This document shows, piece after piece, positions 35,065-52,226 of a stretch of DNA of 64,000 nt. The stretch is from the NCBI GenBank assembly GCA_021432635.1, contig MU270106.1:154399-218398 (forward strand), given 5' to 3'. The notes under the pieces were generated by a model. It was not told the DNA's origin, did no database searches, and was given only the letters and a program-made list of their open reading frames with translations. The DNA comes from Thozetella sp. PMI_491. Lineage: Eukaryota > Ascomycota > Sordariomycetes > Chaetosphaeriales > Chaetosphaeriaceae. Position 1 is the stretch's first letter. Every line of letters begins with the position of its first letter. The translations under genes and the position numbers were made by a program.

Positions 35065-35862
35065 CGTGGAATCGCTCTACCGTAGCCTTCCTTGAGGTGC
35101 TATGAGGATTTTACGTGAGTGGCCCCGCGCATTCGACTAGACAACGAAGTCACGTGGATAATTGGAGGATTCAGATCCCTGACGTACTGAAGCATTCAGT
35201 CGCATACATCATACCAGAGGCCGAATTGTATATTTACTAAATCTTAATCTTCGATGGATACATCGGGAGTAGAGATCTATTTACTACTACCATTGATAGC
35301 TAATAGTTTCGGGTCTAAAAGCCGAAAGGGGTTGAAAGTTTGTAGGTTTATTGCGAACCAGTTTATGGCCACTGCACGATAAAGTATCAGGCGATGCTCA
35401 AGGTACTCAAGATATAGTGATAGTAGCCTTAGTAAGACGCTTTAGCCTTACAGCTTGTTTATATTGGTAACTTGTGGCTGGGTGGCGGCTACCCTCAGCG
35501 AGCATGCTAAACTATTCCCTAAGCCGAGAAACTGAAATAGTGGGCCAGATTCGGTCCGGAGAGAAGTCCGGGGCAGGGTTTGGGGTTGTGGAGTCAAGGT
35601 TCCATAGCCGCCGATGGTGCGGGACACTACCTCGACCGGAATCGACCGTTCGGCCAAGCGGTTCTTCCGGCGTCGGATTTCAAAACTGTGACGTTCGCAG
35701 GCATGAGGATGTAGCCGGGATGTGATGATCAGAGCTACCACTGATATCTTTAGCCCTCGTCCTGCATGTACGATAAGATACCTATCTAGGTACCTTAGAG
35801 CACCCCCCTTCAACGCCCAAGGTACCTCTTTACCTTCTTACCCCAAGCTGGAAACAGAAAGC
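35065..35862. promoter_or_regulatory. Promoter region between HET gene and aldolase
   Basis: 798 bp between divergent genes, AT-rich in its first half (35170-35460). It carries one copy of the cluster element at 35556-35571. An ATG at 35725 is in frame with the aldolase and would add 46 residues, but the ATG at 35863 is preferred. Confidence 0.55.
35556..35571 (+). promoter_or_regulatory. Cluster element copy 1 (CGG-N8-CCG)
   Basis: CCGGAGAGAAGTCCGG, 292 bp before the aldolase ATG. Inverted CGG/CCG triplets with the 8-bp spacer AGAGAAGT; near-identical copies lie at 38366, 44700 and 48475. Confidence 0.75.
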
Positions 35863-36902
35863 ATGGCATCCAAAGTCTCCACTCCCAAGTCGAAACCGCT
35901 GCCGCCCGGGGTCTACACACCGGTAATTACCATCTATGAGAATGCGCCCTCACAGCCTGTCAACCTCGACGCCATGTACCGGCACTGCCAGTACCTCGTC
36001 AACAGCGGCATGCATGGGCTCGTCTACCTCGGTACCAACGGGGAGATGGCTCTGCTCACCCATGACGAGCGCACGGCCATCATTGCCAACGCCCGGCGAG
36101 CTGTGACGGACCTCGGGCGCCCGGACTACCCGATTGTAGCCGGCATCTCGGCCCAAAGCACAGTCGAGACCATCCAGTTCGCCAAAGAAGCTGCTGAGGC
36201 TGGGGCCGGTTGGGGCCTGCTGCTTCCTCCGAGCTACTGGGCCAAGGCACTGAGCAGCGATGCGCTCGTAGGGTACTACCGGGATGTTGCGGATGCGAGC
36301 CCTATTCCCATTGTTGTCTACAACGTGCGTTGCTCCCTGGGTTAGTCATGGCAGTTCAGTAATCAAGGCTAACTACGTCTCAGTTCCCTGGCGTGACAGC
36401 AGGCGTTGATCTAGATTCAGACCAACTCTCTGCGCTGGCGTCGCACCCCAATATTTCCGCCGTGAAGCTCACTTGCGGCAACGTCGGCAAAGCCATCCGC
36501 CTGACATCCAAGTTTGAGCCGCAGCACTTTGGAGTCTACGGCGGTAGCAGTGATTACTTGCTTCCGACTTTGCATGCAGGGGGCAGCGGGTGTGTCACGG
36601 GCATGGGCAATGTGTTCCCGCGGTCGACGTCGCGGGTATTCGACCTATGGAAGGAGGGCCGATTGGATGAGGCCCGCGAGCTCCAGGATAAGGTAGCGAA
36701 CGCCGAATGGGCGTGCAAAAAGTCGCTCGCGCTGACCAAGTACGGGGCATGGTATTATGTAGGCAAGCATATCGGACTGGAGGACGAGGCTATGTTTGTC
36801 ATGCGGAAGCCGTATCTACCAGCCGCCGAGGCACAGAAGAAGTGGGCGGTGGAGATATTCGCGGCGCTCGTAAACGACGAGGAAAGGTTGAGACAAGAGT
36901 AG
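35863..36902 (+). CDS. DHDPS/NAL-family aldolase
   Basis: Class I pyruvate-dependent aldolase of the dihydrodipicolinate synthase/N-acetylneuraminate lyase family, 326 residues. Exons 35863-36324 and 36384-36902 (intron with GTGCGT donor, GGCTAAC branch). The Schiff-base Lys182 lies in NISAVKLT, the catalytic Tyr153 in PIVVYN, and the carboxylate-binding loop is GTNGE (57-61), closer to the GSNGE of 4-hydroxy-2-oxoglutarate aldolase than to GTTGE or GSTGE. Fungi do not use this family for lysine, so a catabolic role on a 2-keto-3-deoxy sugar acid, an ulosonic acid or 4-hydroxy-2-oxoglutarate is likely. Tail-to-tail with the sialidase-like gene, 52 bp apart. It carries the cluster element in its promoter. 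Confidence 0.88.
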
Positions 36903-36954
36903 GCTAAGGGTGTGAATGGAAGTAAATAAATAGTTTAATAGTTTAGATGTTCTA

Positions 36955-38136
36955 TTACGATCTCGCAAAAGCTTCTACGTCTGCGACGTGTACATACTTG
37001 ATGTACTGCCTATGATATGTGTAGGCAATATGAGCCGCTTTAGGGTCGTTTGTGTCCACATATATGCTCGGATAGCTCAACTCGCGGTTTGTCTTTTCCA
37101 CCGAGTTATTCGTCATACAAAATCCGTCGCCATCCTCTAGTACCTTGTACTTCCATGTCTTGCCGTGGTCCTTGGAGAGGCCCACAGACAACGCCTTACG
37201 AGGAGTGCCCCAGATGGCGCTTCTCCCGTCGACTTGCGGCTGGTTGCTCCTTGTGTCGTCCTCGGAAGTAATATCGTCGTACAGGCCTTCCCGGCGTTGC
37301 ATGCCGACGCTGGCGCACGAATCGTTAAAGACAATCGCCAGGTCTCCATTTCCCAGGACGGCAGCACATATCCCCGAGTTGGGGTTGGCCAGAGCTGTCT
37401 TCTCCGGGGCGGCCCAGTCTATGCCATCCTTGGAGGTGGATCGGTAAACATTGTCAGCCCACCGGCTGCGGAAGAAGGAGACATAACCTCCTCCACTCTC
37501 CTCCGTTAATGGCACGATGTTCATATGAACGCAGCCCCTGGACTCGGGAACCGGCTTTTCCTCCCAGGTCTTGCCGCTGTCCTTGCTGAACAGCACAGTG
37601 GACACATCGTCGGTTCCATTCCACCGAAAGCCGGGTGGTGAGCGACAGTACCACGCGGGCAGAACCCATGTGCCGTTCGGCAACACCACCACCGGCTGCC
37701 GGACGAATAGTCCCCGCTTTTCCGGGAAGGGTGAGATGGGAGACGACCAGGTCACGCCCTGGTCAGCAGATGTGCGTGCCACCACTTCGGCCTCGTTCTG
37801 GTTCCCGGCGGGCTGGGCCGTATGAAAGAGCCACAGCATGCCACTTGCCGGGTCACGGAAGAGAATAGGATTTTGTTCGCTCCGGTTGGGGTCTGACGAG
37901 ATGCGCGCGGGCTGGGACCAGGACGCGCTGCCGGGTAGGCGTCTCGAAAGATAGACGGAGATATCAGCGGTGCCTTCTTGTGTTCCTCCAAACCAAGTGC
38001 AGAGAAGCGTGCCATCTGGGAGTTGGAGGAGATTGGATGCGTGACACTGGGCGGTGGCCGCCGGGATGGCCTCGACTCTGGAGACTGCCGAGGCCTGCAC
38101 GGTGGGTTCGACGAGCATTGTGCTGGTTGCGGACAT
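36955..38136 (-). CDS. BNR/Asp-box sialidase-like protein
   Basis: Six-bladed-propeller protein of the BNR (sialidase-like) superfamily, 393 residues, one exon. Asp boxes of the type S-x-D-x-G-x-T-W are visible: SADQGVTW, SKDSGKTW and SKDHGKTW, plus the degenerate SKDGIDW. The N-terminal HASNLLQLPDGTLLCTWFGG and SEQNPILF regions match family members annotated as exo-sialidases, but no secretion signal is seen, so it would work inside the cell or not on polymers. Neighbours include an NAL-family aldolase, which fits release and cleavage of an ulosonic acid, but many BNR proteins have other substrates. It shares a divergent 524-bp promoter with the MFS gene at 38661. Confidence 0.8.
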   Translation of the reverse strand: MSATSTMLVEPTVQASAVSRVEAIPAATAQCHASNLLQLPDGTLLCTWFGGTQEGTADISVYLSRRLPGSASWSQPARISSDPNRSEQNPILFRDPASGMLWLFHTAQPAGNQNEAEVVARTSADQGVTWSSPISPFPEKRGLFVRQPVVVLPNGTWVLPAWYCRSPPGFRWNGTDDVSTVLFSKDSGKTWEEKPVPESRGCVHMNIVPLTEESGGGYVSFFRSRWADNVYRSTSKDGIDWAAPEKTALANPNSGICAAVLGNGDLAIVFNDSCASVGMQRREGLYDDITSEDDTRSNQPQVDGRSAIWGTPRKALSVGLSKDHGKTWKYKVLEDGDGFCMTNNSVEKTNRELSYPSIYVDTNDPKAAHIAYTYHRQYIKYVHVADVEAFARS

Positions 38137-38660
38137 GATGCCTCTCTCGAGCAGTGACTCGCTGACGCGTATCGGGCAATTGGCCCTCCGAGATACGACG
38201 TGTAAATAGCTGCAGCCATCTCACATCGTCAGTCACGCGTCGCTATGGCGCCACTAGGTAATGCCGATCCGCTCCACTAGGTCACACCGTCGGAGGCCGG
38301 GCCGCAGCAGGGCATTGCCTAGGCTGAAACGATGTGCAGACTTACAACTGGTTTCGCCCCCACACCCGGCCTTCTCTCCGGTCTGAACTTTAATCCCCGC
38401 ATTTCAGGAGGCCGTGCTACTAGGTCTGGGGAAGCAGCCACTGAGGATACCAAGTCTGGGGTAAGCGTCCGGGGCTATCATGCGGAGGTTAGCCCCACCA
38501 GAGCGAGACGAAAGACTCAAGATATCACTTAGCTCAAGAACCACCTGAGTGTCTTCGTCATGCCTCAGACCACCCGAAATCTCTTCCAATCTCTCGTGTA
38601 GAAACTTTGTCTTCGCATCTTCAGCTCGCATTCAGTTGTCGGTCAGACAAATAACACAAC
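38137..38660. promoter_or_regulatory. Divergent promoter, sialidase-like / MFS
   Basis: 524-bp head-to-head promoter carrying cluster element copy 2 at 38366-38381. A CCCCGC (CreA-type SYGGRG on the other strand) lies shortly after it, at about 38395. Confidence 0.6.
38366..38381 (-). promoter_or_regulatory. Cluster element copy 2 (CGG-N8-CCG)
   Basis: On the minus strand reads CCGGAGAGAAGGCCGG; differs from copy 1 at one position (T to G at spacer position 8). Confidence 0.75.
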
Positions 38661-40588
38661 ATGGGTGGTGGCACTTCACTGTGGGCGGCTCCGGAATGGA
38701 AGACCGACCCTAAGGAAATCTTCAACGGGAAGTTGTACTTCCTTACCCTTGCCGTTGGCATGGCGGGCTGCTCCTATGGGTTCGATCAGGGCAACATCGG
38801 GGGCGTCCTGACGCTTCCAAGCTTCAAGCATGCCTTTGGACTTGACACCATGAGCGCCGCCGACGCCGACGCGACGAGTAAGTCATACTTGCCCAGGCTA
38901 CACGTTGTGGACGCTATAGACTAATGGGCCGCTAGAGGGCAATATTGCCGCGATGAGTAAGTGATATCGATCGTCCTCAACTCGCAACCTATATCTAACG
39001 CGCCGTTCCGGAACAGTGGCTGCTGGAGGCGCTGGCGGCGCCTTGCTTGCAGCGCCTTGCTCAGACTTTCTCGGTCGCAAGGAATCCATGCTAATCTTTG
39101 GATTCATATTCCTTGTTGGGTGTGCCATGCAGGAGGTCGCACAAATTGGAGTGTTCTATGCCGGCCGACTTCTTGCGGGCATCGCCATCGGCGGCATGTC
39201 GATGCTTGCGCCGCAATATCTAGCCGAAAACTCTCCCAAATCGGTCCGAGGGTCTGTGACAACAACTTACAATCTCTTCATCATTCTCGCACTAGCACTG
39301 GCTTTCTGGGTCAATTATGGCGTCAGCCTCTGGGCGCACCAGAGTAACACGCAATGGCAGCTGGCTCTAGGCATTCAGCTGATCCCCGGGTTCTTTATGT
39401 TCATTACCATGTTTTGTGAGTGGATCAGTCGACGGAAAGAGAAATTGGAAGGAGCTAACTTGCGTAGTTGTCATTAATACCCCGAGAGGGCTAATTGCTC
39501 GGGGCAAGCGAGAGCAGGGGCTCAAGAATCTCTGTAAACTCCGGAACTTGGACGCCGACCACCCTTATCTTCGACAAGAGTACATGGAAGTGTGTGCTCA
39601 GGTTGACGCCCAAGAGGAACTCGCATCCGGTATGTTTAGAACAGGGTGTCTATACCTCTTTCGCTCCGCCCGTTCCCTGCTAACCGAGGCGGTAGGAATG
39701 AGCTACTGGCAGATCATTAAGGACATCGTCTTTATCCCCAGCAACTCTCGCCGCTTCTTCCTTGCCTCGATGCTGTTTCTCTTCCATAAGTTCACGGGGA
39801 CAGATAGTCTAAATTACTTCGCGCCCGAGATCTTTCAGATGATCGGGGTGTCAGCTGGATCGACTTCCCTCTTGACCACGGGAGTCTACGGTCTCGTCAA
39901 GCTGGCTGCCACTGTCATTTATGTAACTCTTATTGTTGACAGAGTCGGGCGAAGAAGGCCACTTCTGGTTGGAGCGTTCCTTCAGGCAACAGCGATGCTC
40001 TACATTGCGCTTTACGTTCGTTTTGGAGACCCTTCACCGACTCACGGGACCGAAGCTGGAGGCATCGTCGGCATCATCTGGTAAGATTCACAACCCCAAC
40101 AAGGCCTTCTCCTCCGTATCAAAACTCACTTTATGCGAAGGATTTACATCTATGCCTTCGGCTGGTCGTTCGGCTGGTCGGTCGCTCCGTACGTCGTAGC
40201 CGCCGAGATCTTCCCGTCCCGCATCCGCTCCTTCTCGATGTCGTTCTGCTTCTTCTTGAACTGGATCGTCGACTTCGGCATCACCAAGGCCACCCCTGTC
40301 ATGTTCACCAGCATGGGCTGGGGCACCTTCCTACTCTATGCGGTTCTCACTTACATCGGCGTGGTATTCGTCTACTTCTGCTTGCCCGAACTCAAAGGTC
40401 GCAGCATCGAATCGACCGACGATCTGTTCCAGCACTCGCTCTGGACCATGTTCCGACATGCATACCCAACAGAGGAGGAGAAGGTACGGCATGATGTCCA
40501 GATGCAACTGGTCGCGAAGGCGGCCGACGAGGAGGCGGCTACCGAGAAGAGGGATGGTGCCACGGCTGAGCATGCGGAGCTGAAGTGA
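38661..40588 (+). CDS. MFS sugar/quinate-type transporter
   Basis: Sugar-porter MFS protein, 543 residues, similar in layout to fungal quinate permeases. Exons 38661-38877, 38936-38956, 39017-39415, 39468-39629, 39696-40080, 40141-40588. Exon 2 is only 21 bp and supplies KGNIAAM, needed to join the DADAT end of exon 1 to MAAGGAGGALLA in helix 2. Family marks: SYGFDQGNIGGVL in helix 1, DFLGRKES in loop 2-3, GRLLAGIAIGGMS, VDRVGRRRPLLVG in loop 8-9, AAEIFPSRIRS and PELKGRSIE at the end. The usual PESPR after helix 6 is NTPRG here. It probably imports the substrate of the surrounding sugar-acid pathway. Confidence 0.88.
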
Positions 40589-41103
40589 TGAGCGGTCGAG
40601 TTAAAATCATCATTGGCTTATCTGCATCCCCTCTGTCTAGATTTTTCCGGTTGCGCGCTCGTATTTGCCAGGTAGCCTTAAATATGAATGACCAGACCAC
40701 GAGCTAAGATACAGATGAGTGGGCTGCTCTATCACTCCAAATCGCCCCTGAATCAACTGTTCGAGCCATCCATGCCTATGCCAGAACAGCAGAAACGTGA
40801 TGCCATTGCGGCGCTTGTCTGGGGTTTGTGAGCTTCCTCAATACTGACCCCAAGACATGGGTCTATCCATGTGTGCTCATCTCGCACGGCTCCCTGCCGG
40901 TCTCGTCCCATGTATCCCCCTGGCCCTGGCCGCGAGCATGACTCGTGAAGCCGTTAGTCCACCCCCGCAAGGCCCACCTCTTCAGGCGCCAATCATCCCA
41001 TTCGCCCGTTTCCCCGCCACTCCCTTGGAGAGATCCCTCCGTCGCGGACGGGGTTGCTGACCCTTCGAGTTTTCCCCATTGGCAGCGCCAGCATTCGCCG
41101 AAG
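40589..41103. other. Intergenic region upstream of the second regulator
   Basis: 515 bp. No copy of the cluster element seen here; no gene recognised. Confidence 0.4.
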
Positions 41104-43363
41104 ATGTCGAAGCGATCGTGGACAGAGGCGCGGCTGGAAGATGACGAGGCATCATCATACTCCCAGGTAAGCGTCCCTTTATTGCAAATGCATGGCCACG
41201 GATTAACCTGGGTAGCGTGCGAGCCACACCCAGAGCAGCACGTCTGGGCTTCACCAACAGGTGGCGACGATCTCAAGACGCGTCAAGGCATGTGCAGCCT
41301 GTCGGAAGCAAAAGGTACCGTGTAAAATCCTCACCCGTTCCAATGAATCACCCTGATGCCTGTCTCTAAGACGTCAGCAGATCAAGTGTATTATGGACGA
41401 GAGCGGCCCGCCATGCCGCCGCTGTGAGGAAAAAAGTTTGGGCTGCGTATTGAACAAGAGCCTCCAGATGCTCATAAACGAAAGGCTCCCGTACGCCCCT
41501 TCCTTTCCTAACTCCCTTGGTCCGAACATTTTTCACCAACATGGTATCTGCCGAAACTAGCCCCACAGAAACGCTGGTCCAGGATCTAGACACGCTCCAT
41601 AACGCCCTTCAAACGGTTCTAAGAACACTCAACCTGCCGCCTCTGGAAAGTTTACAGAGTTCCCGCCACGTCTTGGCCCACTCACCAGTATCTGAAGAGC
41701 CCGTCGACATGCGCCACTTGGACGAAGTCGGCCCGTCATGTGACAATTCGCCCAAGCCGACACCAGAAGACGACGAAGTTCTCCCGAAGGTTCCCATCCA
41801 CTCCGTGTACCGCCTGACCAAACTAAGCGCACTACGGTCTCCGGAGGCCGGCGAGCAGACCGGAATTGTGGACACTGCCGGGAATGCCATCGACGATTTT
41901 ATCTCGCGAGGAGCCCTGCCGGTTGAGGACGCGGCCCGGCTCTACAAACTGTACATGGATCGTCTCGACCATTTCCTGTACGGTATTGGGGGAACAAACG
42001 CGACACTGGACGAGGCGCGAAGCAAGAGTCGCATCCTTACAGCGGCTATTTTGACGGTGGCCGCAATGCATGATCCTCAAAGCAACGCTCTGTACGATAT
42101 CTGCAGTAAGGAGTTCCGCCGACTCATGTCGGAGTCCATATTCGATCGTCGCATCAGCCGCGACTACCTTCGCGCCATGTGTGTCGCGTCCTACTGGCTA
42201 AGTGATATCTCATGGATGGTGTCTGGCTACGCCATGCGCCGGGCGGCGGAGTTGAACCTGTCGAATCAGTACCACCGCCTCCTCTCGGAGCATCGGAAGG
42301 AGTCGGCCGACTATGTCAGGCTCTGGTACATCCTGTACATATGCGACCAGCACCTCTCTACACTATACGGCCGTGCACCTGTTCTGCGTGAAGACCTCAC
42401 GGTTTTCGCCTGGGAAGCATTCCTGCAGACGCCGATCACGACTGCCGACGATGTCCGGTTGTCAAGCCAAGTTGCGCTCGTGAATATTGTGCACAGCATC
42501 AAGGAGATGATGGGACCGGACAATGGAAAGGGGCTTCCACGAGCCTTTCTCCCGCAGATTACCGCATTTTCACGCCAGCTTGATCACTGGATTGACCATT
42601 GGTCTATAGCTATACAAGGTGCGTTCAAGTTCACAGCAGGGGACGGTTATCCAGCGCGGCAATGCTTACACCACGTTAATTCGCAGAGCGCCATGACCAG
42701 ATTGGTGGATTTCCCAGGAAAGGGGCACAGCTGCATTTCTACTTTGCCAAGCTGCACCTATACTCCCACGTCTTTCGTGGCCTAGGACGATCACCCATCC
42801 CTCCGTACTACCTGGAAAGTGCCGCCGCGGCGGTATCCGCGGCGACATCCATCATCGACTTCATCACCTCAGACGGCGAACTACATGCTGCGCTAGCAGG
42901 GATGCCTTCCTATCTCCATTCCATGACGGCTTTCGCCAGCATGTTCTTGGTCCGCATGACCATGATCCACGGCGACAGCCTAGTCGAGCGATCGACCGTC
43001 CTCGGTCTTGTATCCAGACTTGTTGCCATTTACCACTCCGCGCCGGTAGGCAAGTGGCATCTGGTTCGCCTCATGGCCGTGGGACAGGAGAAAATTCTCG
43101 AAACTCTCAGACAGCCCAGTGCTGTGCTGCCTATGGTGCTTGCCCCGGCCACAGTAGTTCCTATAGCTCAGCCATCCGGCTTGTCGCCGGATTTCGCGGA
43201 TCCCGGCCTCCTCGGCAGTGGCATCTTTGCTCTAGATCCCAACTCGATGCTCGACTACGATATGAATCTAGACATGTCAGCACTCTTATACTCCAACGCC
43301 GCCACGTTCGAGGCAAGTGGGTCAGGACATGGCGAATTTCACCACACCGGTGCTTCGTTCTAG
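41104..43363 (+). CDS. Zn(II)2Cys6 transcription factor of the second cluster
   Basis: 653-residue fungal regulator. Exons 41104-41166, 41261-41314, 41381-41490, 41561-42618, 42687-43363. The zinc cluster is split over exons 2 and 3 (Cys32, 35, 42, 51, 54, 61: CAACRKQKIKC then CRRCEEKSLGC). A short helix with heptad character (TLVQDLDTLHNALQTVLRTL) follows as dimerisation region, then the fungal_trans middle domain (SYWLSDISWMVSGYAMRRAAEL). The acceptor at 42686 is chosen because it gives QERHDQIGGFPRKGAQLHFY, standard in the family. It lies between MFS and SDR genes whose promoters carry the CGG-N8-CCG element, making it the best candidate for binding that element; this is inference. Confidence 0.87.
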
Positions 43364-43427
43364 TCTATTAGCAGCTAACTTAATCGACTATCCAAAAAGT
43401 ATAAGCCAGTCTGGTTCGTATCACCGC

Positions 43428-44426
43428 TCACTTCTTCAAGCTCTCAGCGAACGCCGTCACCGTCTCAACCAGCGACACATCCCCCACTAGCCCGAGCCCC
43501 GTCGCCCGATTGACGTCGAATCGCGCAGGCCAGCTGCCTACAATCGCCTCGATCTTGCTGTCTGGCTTCTCTTCCACGAGTGCCAATGCCTTCTGACCGC
43601 CTACTGCCTCGAGTGCCTCCAGGATCTCCTGTACCCGGACCGTGATGCCTGGCAGGTTGACGACCCTAGATATTCCAAACTTCTCCTTGGGGATATCTTT
43701 CAACGCCGCCAGATTCCGCACCACCGTGGAAGGGCTGCACACCCACATCTCCAGATTCCTGGACACGGGAAGCACGCTTGGTTCACCCTTGAGAGGCTCT
43801 CGCACAATCCCGCTCGCGAACGAGCTTGCGGCCGCCGATGGGGCACCGGGCCGCACGATCACGGTGGGAAGGCGCGCGATGCGCCCATTGAGCAGGCCGC
43901 GCCGCGACATATCGGAAAGGAACGTTTCGACCATGAGCTTTTGGGCGCCGTAGCTAGACTGGGGCGTCGGACATGTCGCCTCACTCGTCTGTTGCCCAGG
44001 CGTCGCTGGCCCGTACACAGCTAGGCTACTAGGGAAGACAACTACGGTGTCTGACCCGTGCGGCTTTGCGCGAAGTCCGTCGATGAGGGCCCGGTGGCTA
44101 TCCCAATTGACACGCCACCCCAGCTCGAGGTTTGCCTCCGCGCCTCCAGACATCAGGCCATGGAGAAGATATACTGCCCTGAAGGGGGTCTCGAGAAGGG
44201 CGGAAACCGCGGCGGGGGAGGTGAGGTCGCTTTTGACGGCGGTGACGCGGGAGGAGGAGCTTGACTGGCTGCTGACAGTGGGAATCGGCGGTTCGATCAC
44301 GTCGGTGAGAGTAAGGTGGATGGAAGGAGAGGCTGCTAGCAGGGCCGCGCTCAGCTCTTGCCCGATGAAACCCGCAGCCCCGGTGATGAGGACGTGTTCC
44401 TCCCCTGCGACAGATTGAGAACCCAT
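43428..44426 (-). CDS. Extended SDR, D-erythronate dehydrogenase-like
   Basis: NAD-dependent epimerase/dehydratase-type SDR, 332 residues, one exon. NAD motif LITGAAGFIGQEL near the N-terminus; catalytic SSLAVYG and YGAQK; the downstream RLPTVIVRPGAPSAAASSF and GIVREPLKG resemble the D-erythronate dehydrogenase (DenD) group, which oxidises C2 of a sugar acid. The ATG at 44426 is the first in the frame. Divergent from an aldo-keto reductase gene across 473 bp that hold cluster element copy 3. A nucleoside-sugar epimerase is less likely from these signatures. Confidence 0.82.
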   Translation of the reverse strand: MGSQSVAGEEHVLITGAAGFIGQELSAALLAASPSIHLTLTDVIEPPIPTVSSQSSSSSRVTAVKSDLTSPAAVSALLETPFRAVYLLHGLMSGGAEANLELGWRVNWDSHRALIDGLRAKPHGSDTVVVFPSSLAVYGPATPGQQTSEATCPTPQSSYGAQKLMVETFLSDMSRRGLLNGRIARLPTVIVRPGAPSAAASSFASGIVREPLKGEPSVLPVSRNLEMWVCSPSTVVRNLAALKDIPKEKFGISRVVNLPGITVRVQEILEALEAVGGQKALALVEEKPDSKIEAIVGSWPARFDVNRATGLGLVGDVSLVETVTAFAESLKK

Positions 44427-44899
44427 TGTTTGGTAACTATTGGGCAGCGGTGGATCAATTTTGCGGGTAGGATTTCCAGAATCGGGAACACACAATTGTA
44501 AAAGTTCTTGTAGCAGCCCAACGTGGTCCACTACTAGTAAACAAAACCTACCCTTTCATCGGTTGATCGCGCGCATATTCAAGCTAACCTGTGTGCATCG
44601 GAGAGCTGCGCGGGCTGCTATGACGCAACGCGGACCCTGAGCTAATCGCTGCTCAAGGGTTTCCCGAGGGACGCCGACCTAGCATTGGCCGGTTGGCGCC
44701 CGGCGAGAAGTCCGGGACCCACCAACATCACGAAGACTCTGGGACGACTACCCCATGAGGCTAAGTGCATACCTCCAACTGCTTGGGTCAAAAAGGCATG
44801 GGGGGAAATTGGGGACGTTGTTCGAACCTACATGTGCTTTCAAGCTCCCCAGACCAACCACCAAGTACCCGATAATATCACGTGCGAAACTGCTTCACA
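44427..44899. promoter_or_regulatory. Divergent promoter, SDR / aldo-keto reductase
   Basis: 473-bp head-to-head promoter carrying cluster element copy 3 at 44700-44715. No gene within. Confidence 0.6.
44700..44715 (+). promoter_or_regulatory. Cluster element copy 3 (CGG-N8-CCG)
   Basis: CCGGCGAGAAGTCCGG, one base different from copy 1 (A to C at the first spacer base), and extended to CCCGG/CCGGG arms. Confidence 0.75.
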
Positions 44900-46088
44900 A
44901 TGGAATACACTAGGTCAGTCGCGTCTTCACAGCCAAGAGAAAGAGAATGGCTTCTAACACTATGACGTAGACTTGGCAACAGTGGCCTCAAAGTCTCCAA
45001 GATCATCCTGGGATGTATGAGCTTTGGATCGAGCAAATGGGAAGGCTCACCCTGGGTGCTAGATGAGGAAGAGAGCTTCAAGGTGATCAAGAAGGCCTAC
45101 GACTTGGGCATCAATACCTGGGTATGATTACTCGCTTGGCTCTGCACATCCCGTTCATCACTCACTATGGCGTTAGGACACGGCAGACACGTACTCCAAT
45201 GGCAAGTCCGAAGTCATCGTTGGCAAGGCCCTGAAGAAATTCAACATTCCCCGGAGCAAGGTGGTCATCATGACGAAGATCTTCAACCCGGTAATGGACG
45301 ATGACTCGCGGCCGGCAGCCGTCAATGATGGTCCTTTGGTCAACCAGATGGGCCTCAGCAGAAAACACATCTTCGAGGCCGTGGATCGGTGCTTGGAGAG
45401 GCTCGACACCGACTATATTGGTTAGTTACAGTCCTCTACTCCATTGACTATCTCGCCTGGTTCCTAACATGCTTTTTCAGATGTGCTTCAGATTCACCGA
45501 CTGGATCGCGACACACCCCCGGAAGAGATTATGCGCGCCCTTCATGAGGTGGTCATGAGCGGGAAGGTACGCTACATAGGCGCCTCTTCCATGTACACAT
45601 GGGAATTTGCACGCCTCCAGTACATAGCCAAGCTCCACGACTGGACAGAGTTTGTAAGCATGCAACCTTTCTACAACCTCCTCTACCGTGAGGAGGAGCG
45701 GGAGATGCTGCCCTTCTGTCGCGCCACGGGCGTCGGCGTCATTCCTTGGAGCCCACTTGCTCGTGGAGTGCTGGCGCGATCGAACAGCGCTGCCGCCAGT
45801 GAAAGCGAAACCACCAGGGGTTCGTCAGACGCCAAGACAAAGAAGTGGTTTGCGAGTGCCAACCTGGAGATTGTGGATGCTGTTGAGAAGGTAGCTAAGG
45901 ACAAGGGAGTGGGCATGCCGCTGGTCGCAACTGCTTGGGTGCTCCGTCAGGGGTGCTGGCCTATTGTGGGACTCAGTAGTGAGAGGAGAGTGGAGGAGAC
46001 AGTGAAGGCGTTGAGCGTTCAGTTGACGGATGAGGAATGTAAGTTTCTCGAACAGGGATACCGGGCGCGAGATATTGAAGGGATGTAA
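44900..46088 (+). CDS. Aldo-keto reductase
   Basis: NADPH-dependent (beta/alpha)8 oxidoreductase, 338 residues. Exons 44900-44913, 44971-45121, 45177-45420, 45481-46088. Exon 1 is just 14 bp (MEYT plus two bases of Arg) and joins to RLGNSGLKVSKIILGCMSFG, the normal start of this AKR branch. Catalytic tetrad Asp56, Tyr61 (DTADTYSNG), Lys89 (VVIMTK) and His142 (LQIHR). Cofactor and substrate segments: PFYNLLYREEERE and PIVGLSSERRVEE. It is likely to reduce or oxidise an aldehyde or ketose formed in the cluster, for example the aldehyde half released by the aldolase. The latter is inference. Confidence 0.9.
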
Positions 46089-46418
46089 ATAGGACGTACT
46101 CAGGCAAATTGATAGATACATCGCTCCCTTCTTGCATAATTCATGCACTGTCTCATATCAGCAACCTCATTGGATGCACTCGTTTGCTAGAACCATCTGC
46201 TGTTTTAACTAATCTATATTCTCTGAACCTTGACTTGGCGTTACAAGAGATGATGTAGGTGATCGTTGCGATGTCAGTGTGTTATCCAGGTACAGCAATT
46301 ATTTTCGGTCAAAATACATAGTTCCTCCGACTGATACAATAAGGAATATGTGAGTATTTGGAATCTAAATTCTATTCTAGCACAACGCCGTCTCCCCATC
46401 TCCCCTAATGCATAGCCT
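46089..46418. other. Convergent intergenic region
   Basis: 330 bp between the 3' ends of the aldo-keto reductase and the flavocytochrome gene. AT-rich; nothing recognised. Confidence 0.5.
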
Positions 46419-48160
46419 TCATAATCTGGCCTTGGGAGATCTCCTAGGGATATCAGGGAACTTCTGGGATCTAACGAGATGGTCTACGTCTGCAGTGTTC
46501 AACATATCCGGAGTGACTTCGCCCAGCGTTCGCACACCACATAACCTCATCGAAGTCTCTAATTCGTCTTTCAGAACTACCGTTTGTCAGTATCGGGTTG
46601 ATCAGTCTCAGTATCGGTATGGCCACTCACTCTGTGTCAGATGCTCTGCTCCTTCCTGGCCATACACCAAGGAGTAAAGGTACGGCCGTCCCACGCCAAC
46701 GGCAGTGGCCCCCAATGCAATTGCTTTGAGAATATCTGTGCCTCGCTCAAACCCTCCATCGACGAAGACCTCGAGGCGTGAGAAAACTTCGGGGCACTTG
46801 AGCCTGAGCTCGAGCAGGTTCAAAATAGCGGGCTGGCTTCTACAGTGCGGCTTTCGTTAGTAACCGTCAGTCACTCGTGGGGAGTCAACATACGTATCCA
46901 GTGACCTCCCGCCATGATTGCTGAGCATGATGCCATCTACCCCATACTTGACTGCCATCTTCGCATCCTCCACGTTCTGCACGCCCTTCAGGATGATTGG
47001 TGCGCTAGACGTCTCCTTGATCCAGGCCAGATCCTCCCAGGTCAACCCCTTGTCAATATACTGGGCCATCAGGCGGCCTAGTCCGCCTCCTTTCTTATCG
47101 TTCGCAGAGGTGGCCCCACTAATCGCGGATTGGACGCTCCCGGCCGCGATGCGCTCGTCAGCCTCGCGCTTTCCAGGCACAGGCGCATCTACCGTCACAA
47201 AAATGGCCCGGATACCCAGGCTTTTGGCCTTGCGTAATAGCTCGGTCGTCTTGCTCCTCTCCGAGTTGACGTATAGTTGGAAGAAGAATGGCTGCTTAGG
47301 GGAACCGGCTTCGACGATCCTGGCTAGTGGGAACGACGCGTTGTTGGAGATCTAAGTGGAAAAATCAGTAACACGATGTAGTCCCAGAGCATCAGAGAGA
47401 GCTTACACATTGGATAATTCCCTCACGTGCGGCGGCCTTTGCGAGTGCAATCTCACCATCTGGATGCGCGAGCTTGGCCATGGCAGCTGGGCTGATGAAA
47501 AAAGGAGCCTCGCTTTCGAAGCCTAAAATACGCCTCCTCAAACTTATGTGCCGAACATCTCGCAGGATGCGAGGCTGAATCATGATCCTTCGAAGCAGTG
47601 CCTTGTTTTGGCGGTGCGTAATGAGATCCGTTGCTGCCGACGAGTAAAAGGCCCAAGTTTTGGGAGACAGCTCGACCTCGGCCACCTTCTCGAAATCGGC
47701 TGCGCTGATTAAATTGTGCAGGCCCGGCGGGCCCGAGACTTCTTTCCTCACTCCAGCTTCAATCTGCCTTTGTGTAGCTACCGTGGCATCTTGGGGAGGA
47801 GGGTCCATGGCTGAGTGCTCGAGCAAGCCCTTAAATTTGGTTGCTGGTAAGGTGTCTTCGAACATGCCCGGCGCATGGACTTTGTCAAACTCTTCAGTTG
47901 CATGACCTCCAGCGCAGCTCAGAATAACTTTACCCTCTTTGTCAGTCAACGGATCCAATAGATCAAGGCTTCGTTATTCTCGTACTTTCAGGGCCACCGG
48001 GGTGTTCATCTAGAAACTCTGTGACGTCCCATACTTTCCTGTGAACGACAACCCAGCAGTCATCTTTCCTATTGTGCCTATGGAGCTCCTCCAGCGACAC
48101 GTATGCTGGCTCATCCATGTAGGTGCTCGATTCTGTAGTGTTGGATGGGCTTTCGTGCAT
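46419..48160 (-). CDS. Flavocytochrome b2-type FMN 2-hydroxyacid dehydrogenase
   Basis: Cytochrome b5 domain fused to an FMN-dependent alpha-hydroxyacid dehydrogenase, as in L-lactate:cytochrome c oxidoreductase. Exons in transcription order: 48160-47986, 47927-47407, 47351-46894, 46839-46631, 46576-46419; 506 residues. Haem ligands are His53 (HPGGP) and His76 (KVHAPG), 23 apart as in yeast cytochrome b2; this spacing is why the acceptor at 47928 is preferred over an AG 9 bp earlier. FMN/active-site marks: [56 protein letters not shown] and [16 protein letters not shown]. No mitochondrial presequence is obvious. Divergent from the D-2-hydroxyacid dehydrogenase gene; the ATG at 48118 is an alternative start. 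Confidence 0.9.
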
Positions 48161-48784
48161 CTTTGCTATGTAGGGAAGCCGATACAAGGTTCGGAGGCTA
48201 AGTCAAAAGGTCTTAATGCTTCCTTGCCCTCTCATACCTCAGTGAAAAGACCAGAAAGAGCGTGATCGCTGATCGCTTATGCAGGCTCTCCCACGACCGG
48301 AAAGCTCGCTGCGCCGAAGAACAGGGAGAAATGCTCAAGGCCAGCGACGCAGTGAGGGTGAAGGGCCAATGTTTGACAACCAATAAGACGACGCGGGCGT
48401 GCCATACAGATTGTCTGAGACTGCATGGAAATAATCGGCCATTATGTCCAGGGGGCCTCGTCTCGATGCATACATCGGCCTTCTCTCCGGATGGCCGCGA
48501 AGAGCGGGTGGAGCCAGTTCGTTAAGCGGCCGCCTCCTATTCCAGAGCACTTCCCCACTTGTCCCGCTCGGGGTCGTCTATGCCGAGATCACATGGACAC
48601 CTGCTCGAGTCAAGGAAGTACCAGTGTTAGGAAGCTGTTGGGGTAGCTACTCTCAAGAAGCCTGTGTACTGATCTCGCGCGAACGTGCCCACTGATGCCC
48701 GGGGTTGTTTTTTGTTGTCAAACAGTTACAATCCCACACTGTACTATTGCACCGTTTCTGTATGCTTTCTAATGCAAAGGAGCC
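48161..48784. promoter_or_regulatory. Divergent promoter, flavocytochrome / D-2-hydroxyacid dehydrogenase
   Basis: 624-bp head-to-head promoter with cluster element copy 4 at 48475-48490. No gene within. Confidence 0.6.
48475..48490 (-). promoter_or_regulatory. Cluster element copy 4 (CGG-N8-CCG)
   Basis: On the minus strand reads CCGGAGAGAAGGCCGA; identical to copy 2 except for the last base, with both CGG/CCG triplets intact. Confidence 0.75.
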
Positions 48785-49912
48785 ATGTCGAAACCAACCG
48801 TGCTACATATTGGGGAGCCCATCAAGTATAACCATGAGTTCTACAAAAATGAGTTCACAAAACGATTTAATGTCGTACGCAGCGAGGAGACCAGCAGGAA
48901 GGCTTTCATCCAAGCACTGAACGAGAACAAGTCCGTAACTTTCTCAGCTACCCTGAGCATGATATGCCGCCAATGCTAAGCATTCCACCTCACAAGCAGA
49001 TATGGTAACTTCTCGGCGATCTTCCGACCACACTTCCAAACAGGAGGCGAAATGGGCCAGTGGGATGAGGAACTCATATCCCTCCTACCTCCCTCGGTGC
49101 ACATATTCGCCTCGGCCGGCGCGGGGTTCAACTGGGCCGATGTCGACATTCTCGGACAGCGTGGGATATGGTATGCCAATGGTGCCGGCGCGAGCGATGA
49201 GGCGGTCTCGGATACCGGTTTATACATGATCCTGTCTGTCTTCCGCAACTTCACGCGTTCGCAGCTTGCGGCGCGAACGTGCGATCCGGCACAGTTTGAA
49301 GCGACGCACAGGTTGATCGCGACTATCTCGAAGAACCCGCGCGGACACGTCCTCGGTATCGTTGGGCTCGGAAATATCAGCAAGAAGCTCGCCTACAAGG
49401 CACGGACGGCGCTAGGAATGAAGATTCACTACTACGACGTCATCCGCGCTCCCCCCGAGGTTGAGGAAGAACTCGAGGCGACCTTCCACGAGACTCCACA
49501 CGACCTATTCGCTGTAGCCGACTGCGTGACCTTACATACGCCTCTGAACAAGCACACGCAAGACCTGATCGGCGTGGAAGCCCTCGCAACCATGAAGGAC
49601 GGAGTCCGGATCATCAACACGGCAAGAGGGCCAGTGGTCAACGAAGCCGCGCTAATCGAGGCTCTACGGAGCGGTAAAGTTGCCGCGGCGGGATTGGACG
49701 TACACTACTACGAGCCGCAAGTTTCTAAGGAGCTGGCAGCCATGGAGAACGTGACGTTGACGACACACATTGGGGGCGGAGCTATAGACACAAGAGTGAA
49801 TTTTGAGCTGAACGCTATGAAGAACATCCTAGCAGTTGTTGGGGAGAAAGGCGAGTTGATCGGGACCCCGTTGACGCCGGTGAATAGCCACGCATTTAAG
49901 CATGCGTCATAG
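48785..49912 (+). CDS. D-isomer-specific 2-hydroxyacid dehydrogenase
   Basis: NAD(P)H-dependent D-2-hydroxyacid dehydrogenase (glyoxylate/hydroxypyruvate reductase-like), 352 residues. Exons 48785-48930 and 49000-49912; the donor is the unusual GTCCGT, and splicing gives NENKYGNFSAIFRPHF. Marks: ASAGAGFNWADVD, the Rossmann motif GIVGLGNISKKLA, NTARGPVVNEAAL with the catalytic Arg, AAGLDVHYYEP with the Glu, and THIGGGAID with the His. In its setting it could interconvert a D-2-hydroxyacid and the 2-oxoacid made by the aldolase or SDR. It and the neighbouring flavocytochrome act on opposite sides of the same chemical class (2-hydroxyacids). Confidence 0.9.
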
Positions 49913-50408
49913 TCAAGGACTATCTGAGCAACTGATATTCGCGAAAGTGTTTAATAGATAGCAAAATAGCAGAGACTAATCCCATAGAGTCGAATAGCAC
50001 CGACAAGACAGGTTACCACAGGAACGTCTATTAATTAGACCGTATAATTTTACCACCCCCCTGACATAGGCTGCCTTGTCTTTGCCGTATTTCTTGGCAC
50101 GCAATCTCGTCTCTATCGTCTCTCGCTCCATTCCTAGATAATGAGGCCCTTGTCAAAAACGCAGCCTTTCCTTACCTGGTACTCCCCGCGGTCTAGCGCG
50201 GGGAATCTGGGGAGCGGGGAAGCCTTGTAGTCAGCGTTTCTCTCGGTGTTGTCTCCGAGAAGTCTCCCCCACAAGGGGTCCCTGGTCTCCAGCGTGGGGT
50301 GATACGGCCTATGCAAAACCATACTTTACTAAAGTTTCTAGCTCAGTAAAGCCAGGTACGCACCTTTTCACTCTGCATCTCGTGCGAATTACCAACTGCT
50401 CGGACGCC
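49913..50408. promoter_or_regulatory. Promoter region of the Dal5-type transporter
   Basis: 496 bp. It holds a dense group of CreA-like sites and an inverted repeat (listed separately). A half-match to the cluster element, CCGAGAAGTC, lies at 50255-50264 but lacks the second CGG. Confidence 0.5.
50183..50219. promoter_or_regulatory. Four CreA-like sites and an 8-bp inverted repeat
   Basis: SYGGRG matches: CCCCGC (50184-50189, minus strand), GCGGGG (50198-50203), CTGGGG (50207-50212), GCGGGG (50214-50219). The first two form the perfect inverted repeat TCCCCGCG-GTCTAG-CGCGGGGA (50183-50204). This is typical of carbon-repressed fungal promoters; function not shown. Confidence 0.5.
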
Positions 50409-52226
50409 ATGTCGGACGTCATTCACCAAAACAAGATCGACTCGGAGCATCACGAGGACTTGAAGCCTCGGATGCTCTTGCCCGATGAATTACCACCTCC
50501 GGAAGAGCTGGCTGATCTCAGCAATGAAGAGCTGAAGGCTCTCGAGCGTGGTTTAACCCGCAGGCTCGATCTAACGCTCATGCCGGTGGTGTTCCTACTC
50601 TTCCTACTCAATATCCTGTGAGTTCCGCGACATGAGGCGTGATTTACCGCAAGGAATTCCTTCTGACAATATCTACAGTGACAGGAACAACATCGCCAGT
50701 GCCAAGATAGTGGGGCTACCCAAGACGCTCGGCTTGACCAACGACCAATACAATACCTGCCTGCTCATGTTCTACATTGGCTGTATGACCCAATTTCCCC
50801 TTGGAGGCTTTCTTCATCGCCGCTAATCCAGTATAGACTGTATAACACAGGTCCCGTCTAACTTAATAATCGGAAAAGTGAGACCTTCCTATTATATTTG
50901 CCTCTTGACATCGCTATGGGGAGTTGTCTCGATGAGCCAAGCATTCACACACAACTTCGGAGAACTAGCAGCGGTGAGGTTCATATTGGGCCTAATCGAG
51001 GCTCCATTTCTCCCAGCCGTGTTTGTCCTCATGTCTTGCTGGTATACGCGGGCAGAGCTTCCGCCGAGAATTGCCATTCTTTATGGAGGCAACATGCTGG
51101 CCACGGCCTTTTCTGGTCTCATCGCGGCGGGCATCACAGCGCGCATGGAAGGCGTGGCTGGTCGACCTTCTTGGGTAAGCAGAGACATTCAAGATACTGG
51201 ATGGAGCAATTCAGCTGATTTGTATCTTGCTAGGAATGGCTGTTCATCATCGAAGGCTCCATGACCGTCGGGCTGGCGCTGCTACTGCTACCCCTCCTCA
51301 CGGACTACCCCTTACAGAGCAACCATATGTTCATTTCGCGCAAGCATCAGCTAATTGCGGTAAGATCCTGCAGCACACAGTCTTGTTAAGAGCTAACATG
51401 CTAACGTTCGGGGTAGGAATGGCGGATCCGCAAGGAGAATGCTGGTATTATCGATGAGGACCCCGAGTCGATATTTTGGGGACTTAAGCAGGCGCTCGTT
51501 GACCCCAAGCTGTACATGTATATTGTACTGCAAATGGCCCTCATCACGGCGCAGTCTTTCAACAACTTCTTCCCTTCTATCGTGGGGACTCTTGGATATG
51601 ATGGAACCACGACGCTACTGCTAACCTCGCCGCCGTATTTCTTCGCTTTCATCGTCTCACTATGTGTCTCATTTCACGCAGCGCACCGGCGCGAGCGTGG
51701 CTGGCACATCGCCGTACCGATGATATTTGCCCTTCTCGGCAACCTCTTGGTAAGTTTCAGTCTGGGGAGTATTTGGAAGCACGCTTTCTCCTAACATCAA
51801 TCACAGGCCATGTTTGTTCCATCTAATGGCGCTCGCTATTTCTCCATGTTTCTCATGACAGGCGGCTCCTATGCGCCATACAACCTTTGTGTGAGCTGGC
51901 TGAGCGCATCCCTGCCGCGGCCGAGGGCAAAGAGAGCTGCGGCACTGGCTATTGTCAATTTCATGGCAGCAGGTGTCGCTCATTTCTACACTAGCTACAT
52001 GTTCCCGGACAGTCAGCAACCGCGCTACTATGCAGGAGGTGGTGTTATGAGTGGTGCCTGCTTGGTTTGTGCTGGCACAGCATTATATTTGAAGCACTAC
52101 CTCCGAAAGCAGAACAAGAAGTTGGAGGAAGCGGAACAGCGCGGAGTCGTCAGCCATTCGCAGATTGCGGGCTCGAAAGCTGGGCACGGTGGCGAGGGCA
52201 TTGTATCGTTTAGATATGTGCATTAA
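50409..52226 (+). CDS. MFS transporter, Dal5 (anion:cation symporter) type
   Basis: Major facilitator of the allantoate/nicotinate permease group, 509 residues, twelve predicted helices. Exons 50409-50617, 50679-50782, 50837-51174, 51234-51359, 51417-51749, 51807-52226. Family marks: LDLTLMPVVFLLFLLNILDRNNI in helix 1, QVPSNLIIGKVRPS after helix 2 (restored by the intron 50783-50836), GLIEAPFLPAVFVLMSCWYTRAELPPRIAILYGG, EWLFIIEGSMT and PYNLCVSWL. Members carry carboxylates such as tartrate, allantoate, nicotinate or sugar acids, which suits the preceding hydroxyacid genes. Cluster membership is likely from position, although the promoter lacks a full cluster element. Confidence 0.88.

Follow-up and report, generated by a model that had tools for sequence, protein, structure and literature searches.

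A putative Zn2Cys6 operator with a recurrent GAAG spacer word in Thozetella sp. PMI_491

Zn2Cys6 proteins are a very large class of fungal regulators, and most descriptions of their sites give two triplets with a free spacer of set length between them. The element described here is found four times in a 64,000-nucleotide stretch of the Thozetella sp. PMI_491 genome (contig MU270106.1, forward-strand positions 154,399 to 218,398), which as a whole is called the window and whose positions are used below. Each copy consists of two inverted CGG triplets separated by eight bases, with GAAG at spacer positions 4 to 7 (CGG-N3-GAAG-N-CCG), and is located in a promoter of a gene cluster that also includes a Zn2Cys6 gene. 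Paired CGG triplets, as expected of Zn2Cys6 targets, are in this sense present at the target promoters. The element is quite likely the operator of the cluster's own regulator, which would read the spacer as well as the triplets, and the same type of operator would serve paralogs of this regulator.

Among solved chains, the DNA-binding domain of the regulator is closest to Leu3 (E value 9.9e-06), with weaker matches to Lac9, Ppr1, and Put3 (E value 0.02 for Put3). Leu3 reportedly binds everted triplets, whereas the triplets here are inverted. In Saccharomyces, the Zn2Cys6 protein Put3 recognizes CGG-N10-CCG and reportedly binds not only its half-sites but also the spacer between them (PMC5729217). 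Put3 and the system described here share a Zn2Cys6 protein, inverted CGG triplets, and a spacer that is read, or in our case would be read. However, the Put3 spacer comprises ten bases and the spacer is eight bases long in all four window sites, so these sites do not conform to CGG-N10-CCG. Sites of the form CGG-N8-CCG, with the same triplet orientation and spacing as in the window, are described for ClrB (PMC8313289) and BcSpd1 (PMC9280406), and one is suggested for GliZ (PMC4006717). The N8 is free and GAAG is unmentioned in the excerpts of these three sources, whereas the spacer here carries GAAG. The fission yeast Zn2Cys6 protein Pho7 is reported, again in an excerpt, to use an asymmetric site that reaches past one CGG (PMC5559640). 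Asymmetry is common to both systems, but the Pho7 site has a single CGG-type triplet, and a pair is present here.

Sites with GAAG in the spacer were not found among the literature matches listed, which are from open-licence papers, and this does not imply their absence from print. An earlier note on this stretch had called the conserved spacer unusual. Given the spacer binding reported for Put3 (PMC5729217), a spacer that is read is not as exceptional as the note had it. The apparent novelty is that paralogs would reuse the GAAG spacer word, and spacer reading itself has its precedent in Put3.

Four sites in the window

The earlier note had reported four near-identical 16-mers, one in the aldolase promoter and three in divergent promoters, and both sequence and placement are borne out. 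All four sites match CCGGMGAGAAGKCCGR with no mismatches, and each is in its expected promoter and on its expected strand. Operator 1 (CCGGAGAGAAGTCCGG, 35556..35571, plus strand) is in the aldolase promoter, 291 bp upstream of the start codon (ATG). Operator 2 (CCGGAGAGAAGGCCGG, 38366..38381, minus strand) is in the divergent promoter of a BNR gene and a sugar MFS gene, 229 and 279 bp from their respective ATGs. Operator 3 (CCGGCGAGAAGTCCGG, 44700..44715, plus strand) is between an epimerase gene and an aldo/keto reductase gene (273 and 184 bp). Operator 4 (CCGGAGAGAAGGCCGA, 48475..48490, minus strand) is between a cytochrome-b2-like gene and a D-2-hydroxyacid dehydrogenase gene (314 and 294 bp, with the cytochrome-b2-like model incomplete). 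The distances are derived from gene models, and each site is supported by an exact match, the genome scan, and the promoter motif search.

The genome that was searched comprises 72.3 Mb in 157 contigs, and all counts given here are from this one genome. It contains five exact matches to CCGGMGAGAAGKCCGR, of which four are the window sites. The fifth (C12:4989) is inside a 214-amino-acid open frame that resembles an amino-acid permease by eye, and it reads as coding. Thus, the genome scan suggested by the earlier note reveals a 16-mer that is concentrated at the cluster (four of five exact matches), not one that is scattered over the genome without relation to these genes. The genome contains 14 exact matches to the 14-mer core CGGMGAGAAGKCCG, four in the window and ten elsewhere, and at least four of these ten (C12, C34, C39, and C80) are in open frames that resemble known proteins by eye. 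When one mismatch is allowed, 287 matches to CGGMGAGAAGKCCG are found versus 219 for a reversed control, which is near chance.

In a pattern-free search, the best 14-mer common to the four promoters is this same element, at a total of 5 mismatches across three promoters (minimum of 7 and median of 10 in 150 Markov controls). The window has many plain CGG-N8-CCG matches (37 versus 22.75 expected), so the geometry alone means little, and the signal lies in the common spacer. CGG-N3-GAAG-N-CCG occurs four times in the 64-kb window, and these occurrences are the four reported sites. A chance origin of the sites is rejected by the rarity of the 16-mer, by the promoter motif search, and by the clustering at paralogs described below.

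Recurrence beside paralogous regulators

The predicted binder is a Zn2Cys6 transcription factor of 653 amino acids (41104..43363, plus strand), whose assignment is based on a spliced gene model, a Pfam match, and paralogs. Its match to PF00172 (Zn_clus; E value 9.3e-07, 29.3 bits versus a cut-off of 21) identifies a six-cysteine binuclear cluster domain. A look-alike of the element with two mismatches but no GAAG, CCGGCGAGCAGACCGG (41848-41863), falls in an exon of the regulator gene itself. A search of the genome with the regulator gave good matches at seven other loci (C22, C34, C15, C20, C56, C36, and C6), and weaker matches at C1, C20:293-294k, and C27 (E value 1e-5 or worse) were left out. 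In a tree built from tblastn pieces, the window regulator joins C22 (100/100), C36 joins C15 and C6 (100/99), and C34, C20, and C56 stand apart (100/98). C22 is the closest paralog, being 44-51% identical to the window regulator.

Scanning the paralog loci for the motif of the earlier note with up to two mismatches revealed look-alikes upstream of four paralogs: CGGCACGAAGTCCG at C36:251755, CGGCAAGAAGTCCG at C6:30281, CGGAGCGAACGCCG at C22:232804, and CGGCGAAAAGGCCG at C56:370265. From the sites in the window, at C36, and at C6, a wider pattern, CGGMNNGAAGKCCG, was derived. It has 79 matches genome-wide versus 76 for its control, and it added C36:255864, which is beside the C36 regulator in the divergent promoter of a ureidoglycolate-lyase-family gene and a transporter-like gene (named by its likeness to the C15 transporter). 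A transporter gene of this kind also lies near the C15 regulator, and a site in the promoter of that gene was predicted before the sequence was read. The 1.4-kb stretch contained exactly one CGG-N8-CCG, CGGGACGAAGACCG (C15:68475), which carries GAAG and is located between the transporter gene and a carboxylesterase-family gene.

The pattern CGGVRVGAAGDCCG covers the eight sites known at its design, four of which are outside the window. It added C6:32127 and C6:32161 (34 bp apart), C15:61889, and C15:60360, and a further site at C15:61957 fits the looser CGG-N3-GAAG-N-CCG. Near the regulators, eight intergenic occurrences of CGG-N3-GAAG-N-CCG are found (two at C36, three at C6, and three at C15), each upstream of either the regulator gene or one of its neighbours, and three of them in divergent promoters. 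With the four window sites and two at an unlinked locus, C41, this form is represented by 14 intergenic sites, where intergenic status was judged by reading of open frames. Two other candidates, C2:2027593 and C96:41509, were discarded as operators because they are coding by the same reading.

The core evidence for a family operator is provided by the counts near the paralogs. Of the 92 CGGVRVGAAGDCCG matches outside the window, seven are within 3 kb of the seven paralogs (0.069 expected) and eight within 5 kb (0.105 expected). Leaving out the four non-window design sites, four remain within 5 kb versus 0.10 expected (P 3.9e-6), and in the strictest count, in which a coding match is dropped and the C6 pair is counted as one, two remain versus 0.10 expected (P 0.005). 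Within the same 5 kb, the reversed pattern gave 0 of 81 matches, and a control in which GAAG was moved within the spacer gave 0 of 69. Replacing GAAG by GAAC gave 1 of 51, and that one is the C22 site that had suggested this control; the GAAC pattern for the C22 paralog has no cluster of matches in the genome. None of the 96 CGGVRVGAAGDCCG matches is near the weaker regulator matches at C1, C20:293-294k, and C27.

Proposed mechanism and its alternatives

The presence of GAAG at the same place of the spacer beside three sister regulators ties the element to this regulator family. The earlier note had also proposed a cluster-specific Zn2Cys6 site with extra contacts to the spacer, and the near-confinement of the 16-mer together with GAAG at the three sister loci lends support to such a putative site. 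We infer that the regulator would bind as a homodimer, with contacts to both inverted CGG triplets on either side of the eight-base spacer, and that the same protein would also read GAAG at spacer positions 4 to 7, which would give the site a direction that the dimer itself does not have. Through the aldolase site and the single sites in the three divergent promoters, seven genes would be switched together once the regulator is activated, presumably by an intermediate of the pathway. Several paralogous regulators would use the same type of operator, each beside its own small group of genes, and would thus govern separate catabolic regulons.

Several observations weigh against this proposal. 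Genome-wide, CGGVRVGAAGDCCG has 96 matches versus 81 for its reversed control, which is near chance, and single unlinked matches therefore mean little. The constancy of GAAG is partly built in because later sites were found by patterns that contain it. This circularity does not apply to the four window sites, to C36:251755 and C6:30281 (found by the mismatch scan), or to C15:68475 (the sole CGG-N8-CCG in its stretch). Two matches near paralogs, C15:60360 and C36:259174, read as coding. The C34, C20, and C56 loci (about 4 kb each) have no GAAG site. C22 has none in the stretches examined, where only the GAAC variant CGGAGCGAACGCCG is upstream, and no listed CGGVRVGAAGDCCG match is less than 8 kb from C22, C34, C20, or C56. 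Finally, no site is present in the promoter of the window regulator itself, unlike those of the C36 and C6 regulators.

The element might be a composite site, in which the dimer binds the CGG triplets only and a second protein, shared among the loci, binds the GAAG/CTTC of the spacer. The position of GAAG is constant among paralogs with different DNA-binding domains, which is what a single common partner would demand, and the asymmetry occurs within a site for a dimer. However, GAAG lies between dimer heads 8 bp apart, which probably leaves little room, and in the excerpted source Put3 is a precedent for a single protein that reads the spacer (PMC5729217). On balance, a second protein seems unlikely.

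The lack of a site in the window regulator's promoter, and of a GAAG site in the stretches examined at C22, its nearest paralog, would also fit a non-local regulator, for example a general factor, whose sites are co-located with the paralogs only indirectly. The sites nevertheless cluster beside three other members of the family, and a general factor is not expected to favour those loci, which makes this explanation improbable.

A Leu3-like reading would take the outer bases of CCGG...CCGG as everted half-sites, CCG-N10-CGG. The resemblance of the DNA-binding domain to Leu3 among solved structures is in its favour, as are the CCGG that begins all four window sites and the CCGG that ends three of them. 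However, the site at 48475 ends in CCGA, the outer C and G are absent from most paralog sites, and all 14 sites have the inner CGG...CCG, although most of them were found by patterns that demand it. The everted reading is rejected because the paralog sites keep the inner inverted triplets and mostly not the outer bases, and we give it very little chance.

Recent copying of one DNA piece, by duplication or a mobile element, would explain the high identity of the four sites, spacer included, but it is contradicted by 40-bp flanks that share only 5-15 of 40 identities per pair and side and by promoters that align over the element only. The orientation of the sites also varies, and the likelihood of such copying is negligible.

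Genes associated with the sites

The operator proposed here for the window regulator would cover seven genes. The first encodes a DHDPS-family aldolase of 326 amino acids with one intron (35863..36902, plus strand), and the second encodes the BNR_2 protein, a sialidase-like propeller of 393 amino acids (36955..38136, minus strand). They are followed by genes for an MFS sugar porter of 543 amino acids (38661..40588, plus strand), a DenD-like protein of the NAD-dependent epimerase/dehydratase family (43431..44426, minus strand), and an aldo/keto reductase of 338 amino acids (44900..46088, plus strand). The last two encode an FMN-dependent dehydrogenase with a start that is cytochrome-b5-like by eye (46407..48160, minus strand; incomplete model, one exon scanned) and a protein of the D-2-hydroxyacid dehydrogenase family (48785..49913, plus strand; gene model, main exon scanned). 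The aldolase, sugar porter, and aldo/keto reductase are assigned by gene models and profile matches; the BNR_2 protein by profile, genome search, and predicted fold; and the DenD-like protein by the profile NF043036 (D-erythronate dehydrogenase, DenD), whose curated cut-off of 325 bits it only just exceeds, at 325.5 bits. Three loci of DenD paralogs (C82, C2, and C20; 3-4 kb each) contain no GAAG site. The occurrence together of a DHDPS-family aldolase, a DenD-like dehydrogenase, an aldo/keto reductase, hydroxyacid dehydrogenases, and a sugar porter suggests a sugar-acid-type catabolic route.

The promoter motif search found no such site in the promoters of the regulator gene and of a downstream MFS gene (50409-52226) that is allantoate-permease-like by eye. 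One CGG-N8-CCG without GAAG occurs in the promoter of the latter gene (50244-50257). This gene could be part of the regulon or lie outside it.

A genome search revealed no second match to the BNR protein, and relatives with about 50% identity are found in Pasteurellaceae, Gilliamella, Comamonas, Azospirillum, and Actinobacteria. GH33 sialidases have a six-blade fold with a catalytic Arg triad, Tyr/Glu, and Asp. The predicted structure of the BNR protein has a sialidase-like fold (pLDDT 88), and its Foldseek match to 1eus (E value 2.6e-17, 16% identity) pertains to the fold only. In the fetched flanks of 70 bacterial loci with BNR relatives, a DHDPS-family aldolase is present at 26, an aldo/keto reductase at 16, and a D-hydroxyacid dehydrogenase at 8; 28 of the 70 were aligned for the fold and two were read for neighbours. 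A bacterial origin of the BNR gene is plausible. In Actinobacillus sp. GY-402, the BNR relative and its neighbours form an operon-like row. The neighbours are a PdxA-family gene, an iron-containing alcohol dehydrogenase, a DHDPS-family aldolase, a regulator that is DeoR-like by eye, and a permease that matches DASS weakly.

For one neighbouring gene each at C6 and C22, the short pieces gave an empty Pfam scan, and the by-eye labels PhyH-like (C6) and Dabb-like (C22) are not used. The unlinked pair at C41:203103 and C41:203170 is upstream of a gene that, in its first part, matches a phosphonoacetate-hydrolase model, and the C15:61889 and C15:61957 pair is likewise upstream of a phosphonoacetate-hydrolase-like gene (PhnA-like gene regions with site pairs, C41:203103-203899 and C15:61889-62419). 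The partial C15 and C41 proteins (106 and 68 amino acids) match TIGR02335 with E values of 5.2e-40 and 1.3e-25, below the cut-off for full-length proteins. A genome search with the 68-amino-acid first part of the C41 protein gave two matches, the C41 and C15 genes themselves, and both have the site pair. Beyond short words, the element alone aligns between the C15 and C41 promoters, which are not evident copies, and the best-aligned C41 element is opposite in orientation to the C15 elements. An all-against-all comparison of 11 promoters gave three matches at an E value of 0.01 or better, each 17-20 bp long and at the element. No match at this threshold involved the four window promoters, because their sites differ by at least one base from each other and from the rest. 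It is possible that the two PhnA-like genes form a phosphonate regulon. No regulator of a fungal phosphonoacetate hydrolase was found among the literature matches listed.

The spacer might also constitute a two-part address, in which GAAG marks the family and the preceding three bases distinguish the paralogs, a suggestion that we offer tentatively. These three bases are (A/C)GA at all four window sites. The last two of them are GA at four of four window sites and at 0 of 10 sites of other loci, a contrast with an exact chance of 1 in 1001 for a feature that was chosen after the sites had been seen. In the usual account, the regulons of Zn2Cys6 paralogs are separated by triplet spacing. If the address reading is true, those of the present paralogs would be kept separate by spacer sequence at a fixed spacing. 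More generally, a short DNA word can point to regulons by sequence, and here it led to two phosphonoacetate-hydrolase-like genes. With a subfamily that has a conserved, directional spacer word at several loci, the avoidance of cross-talk among paralogs would become testable.

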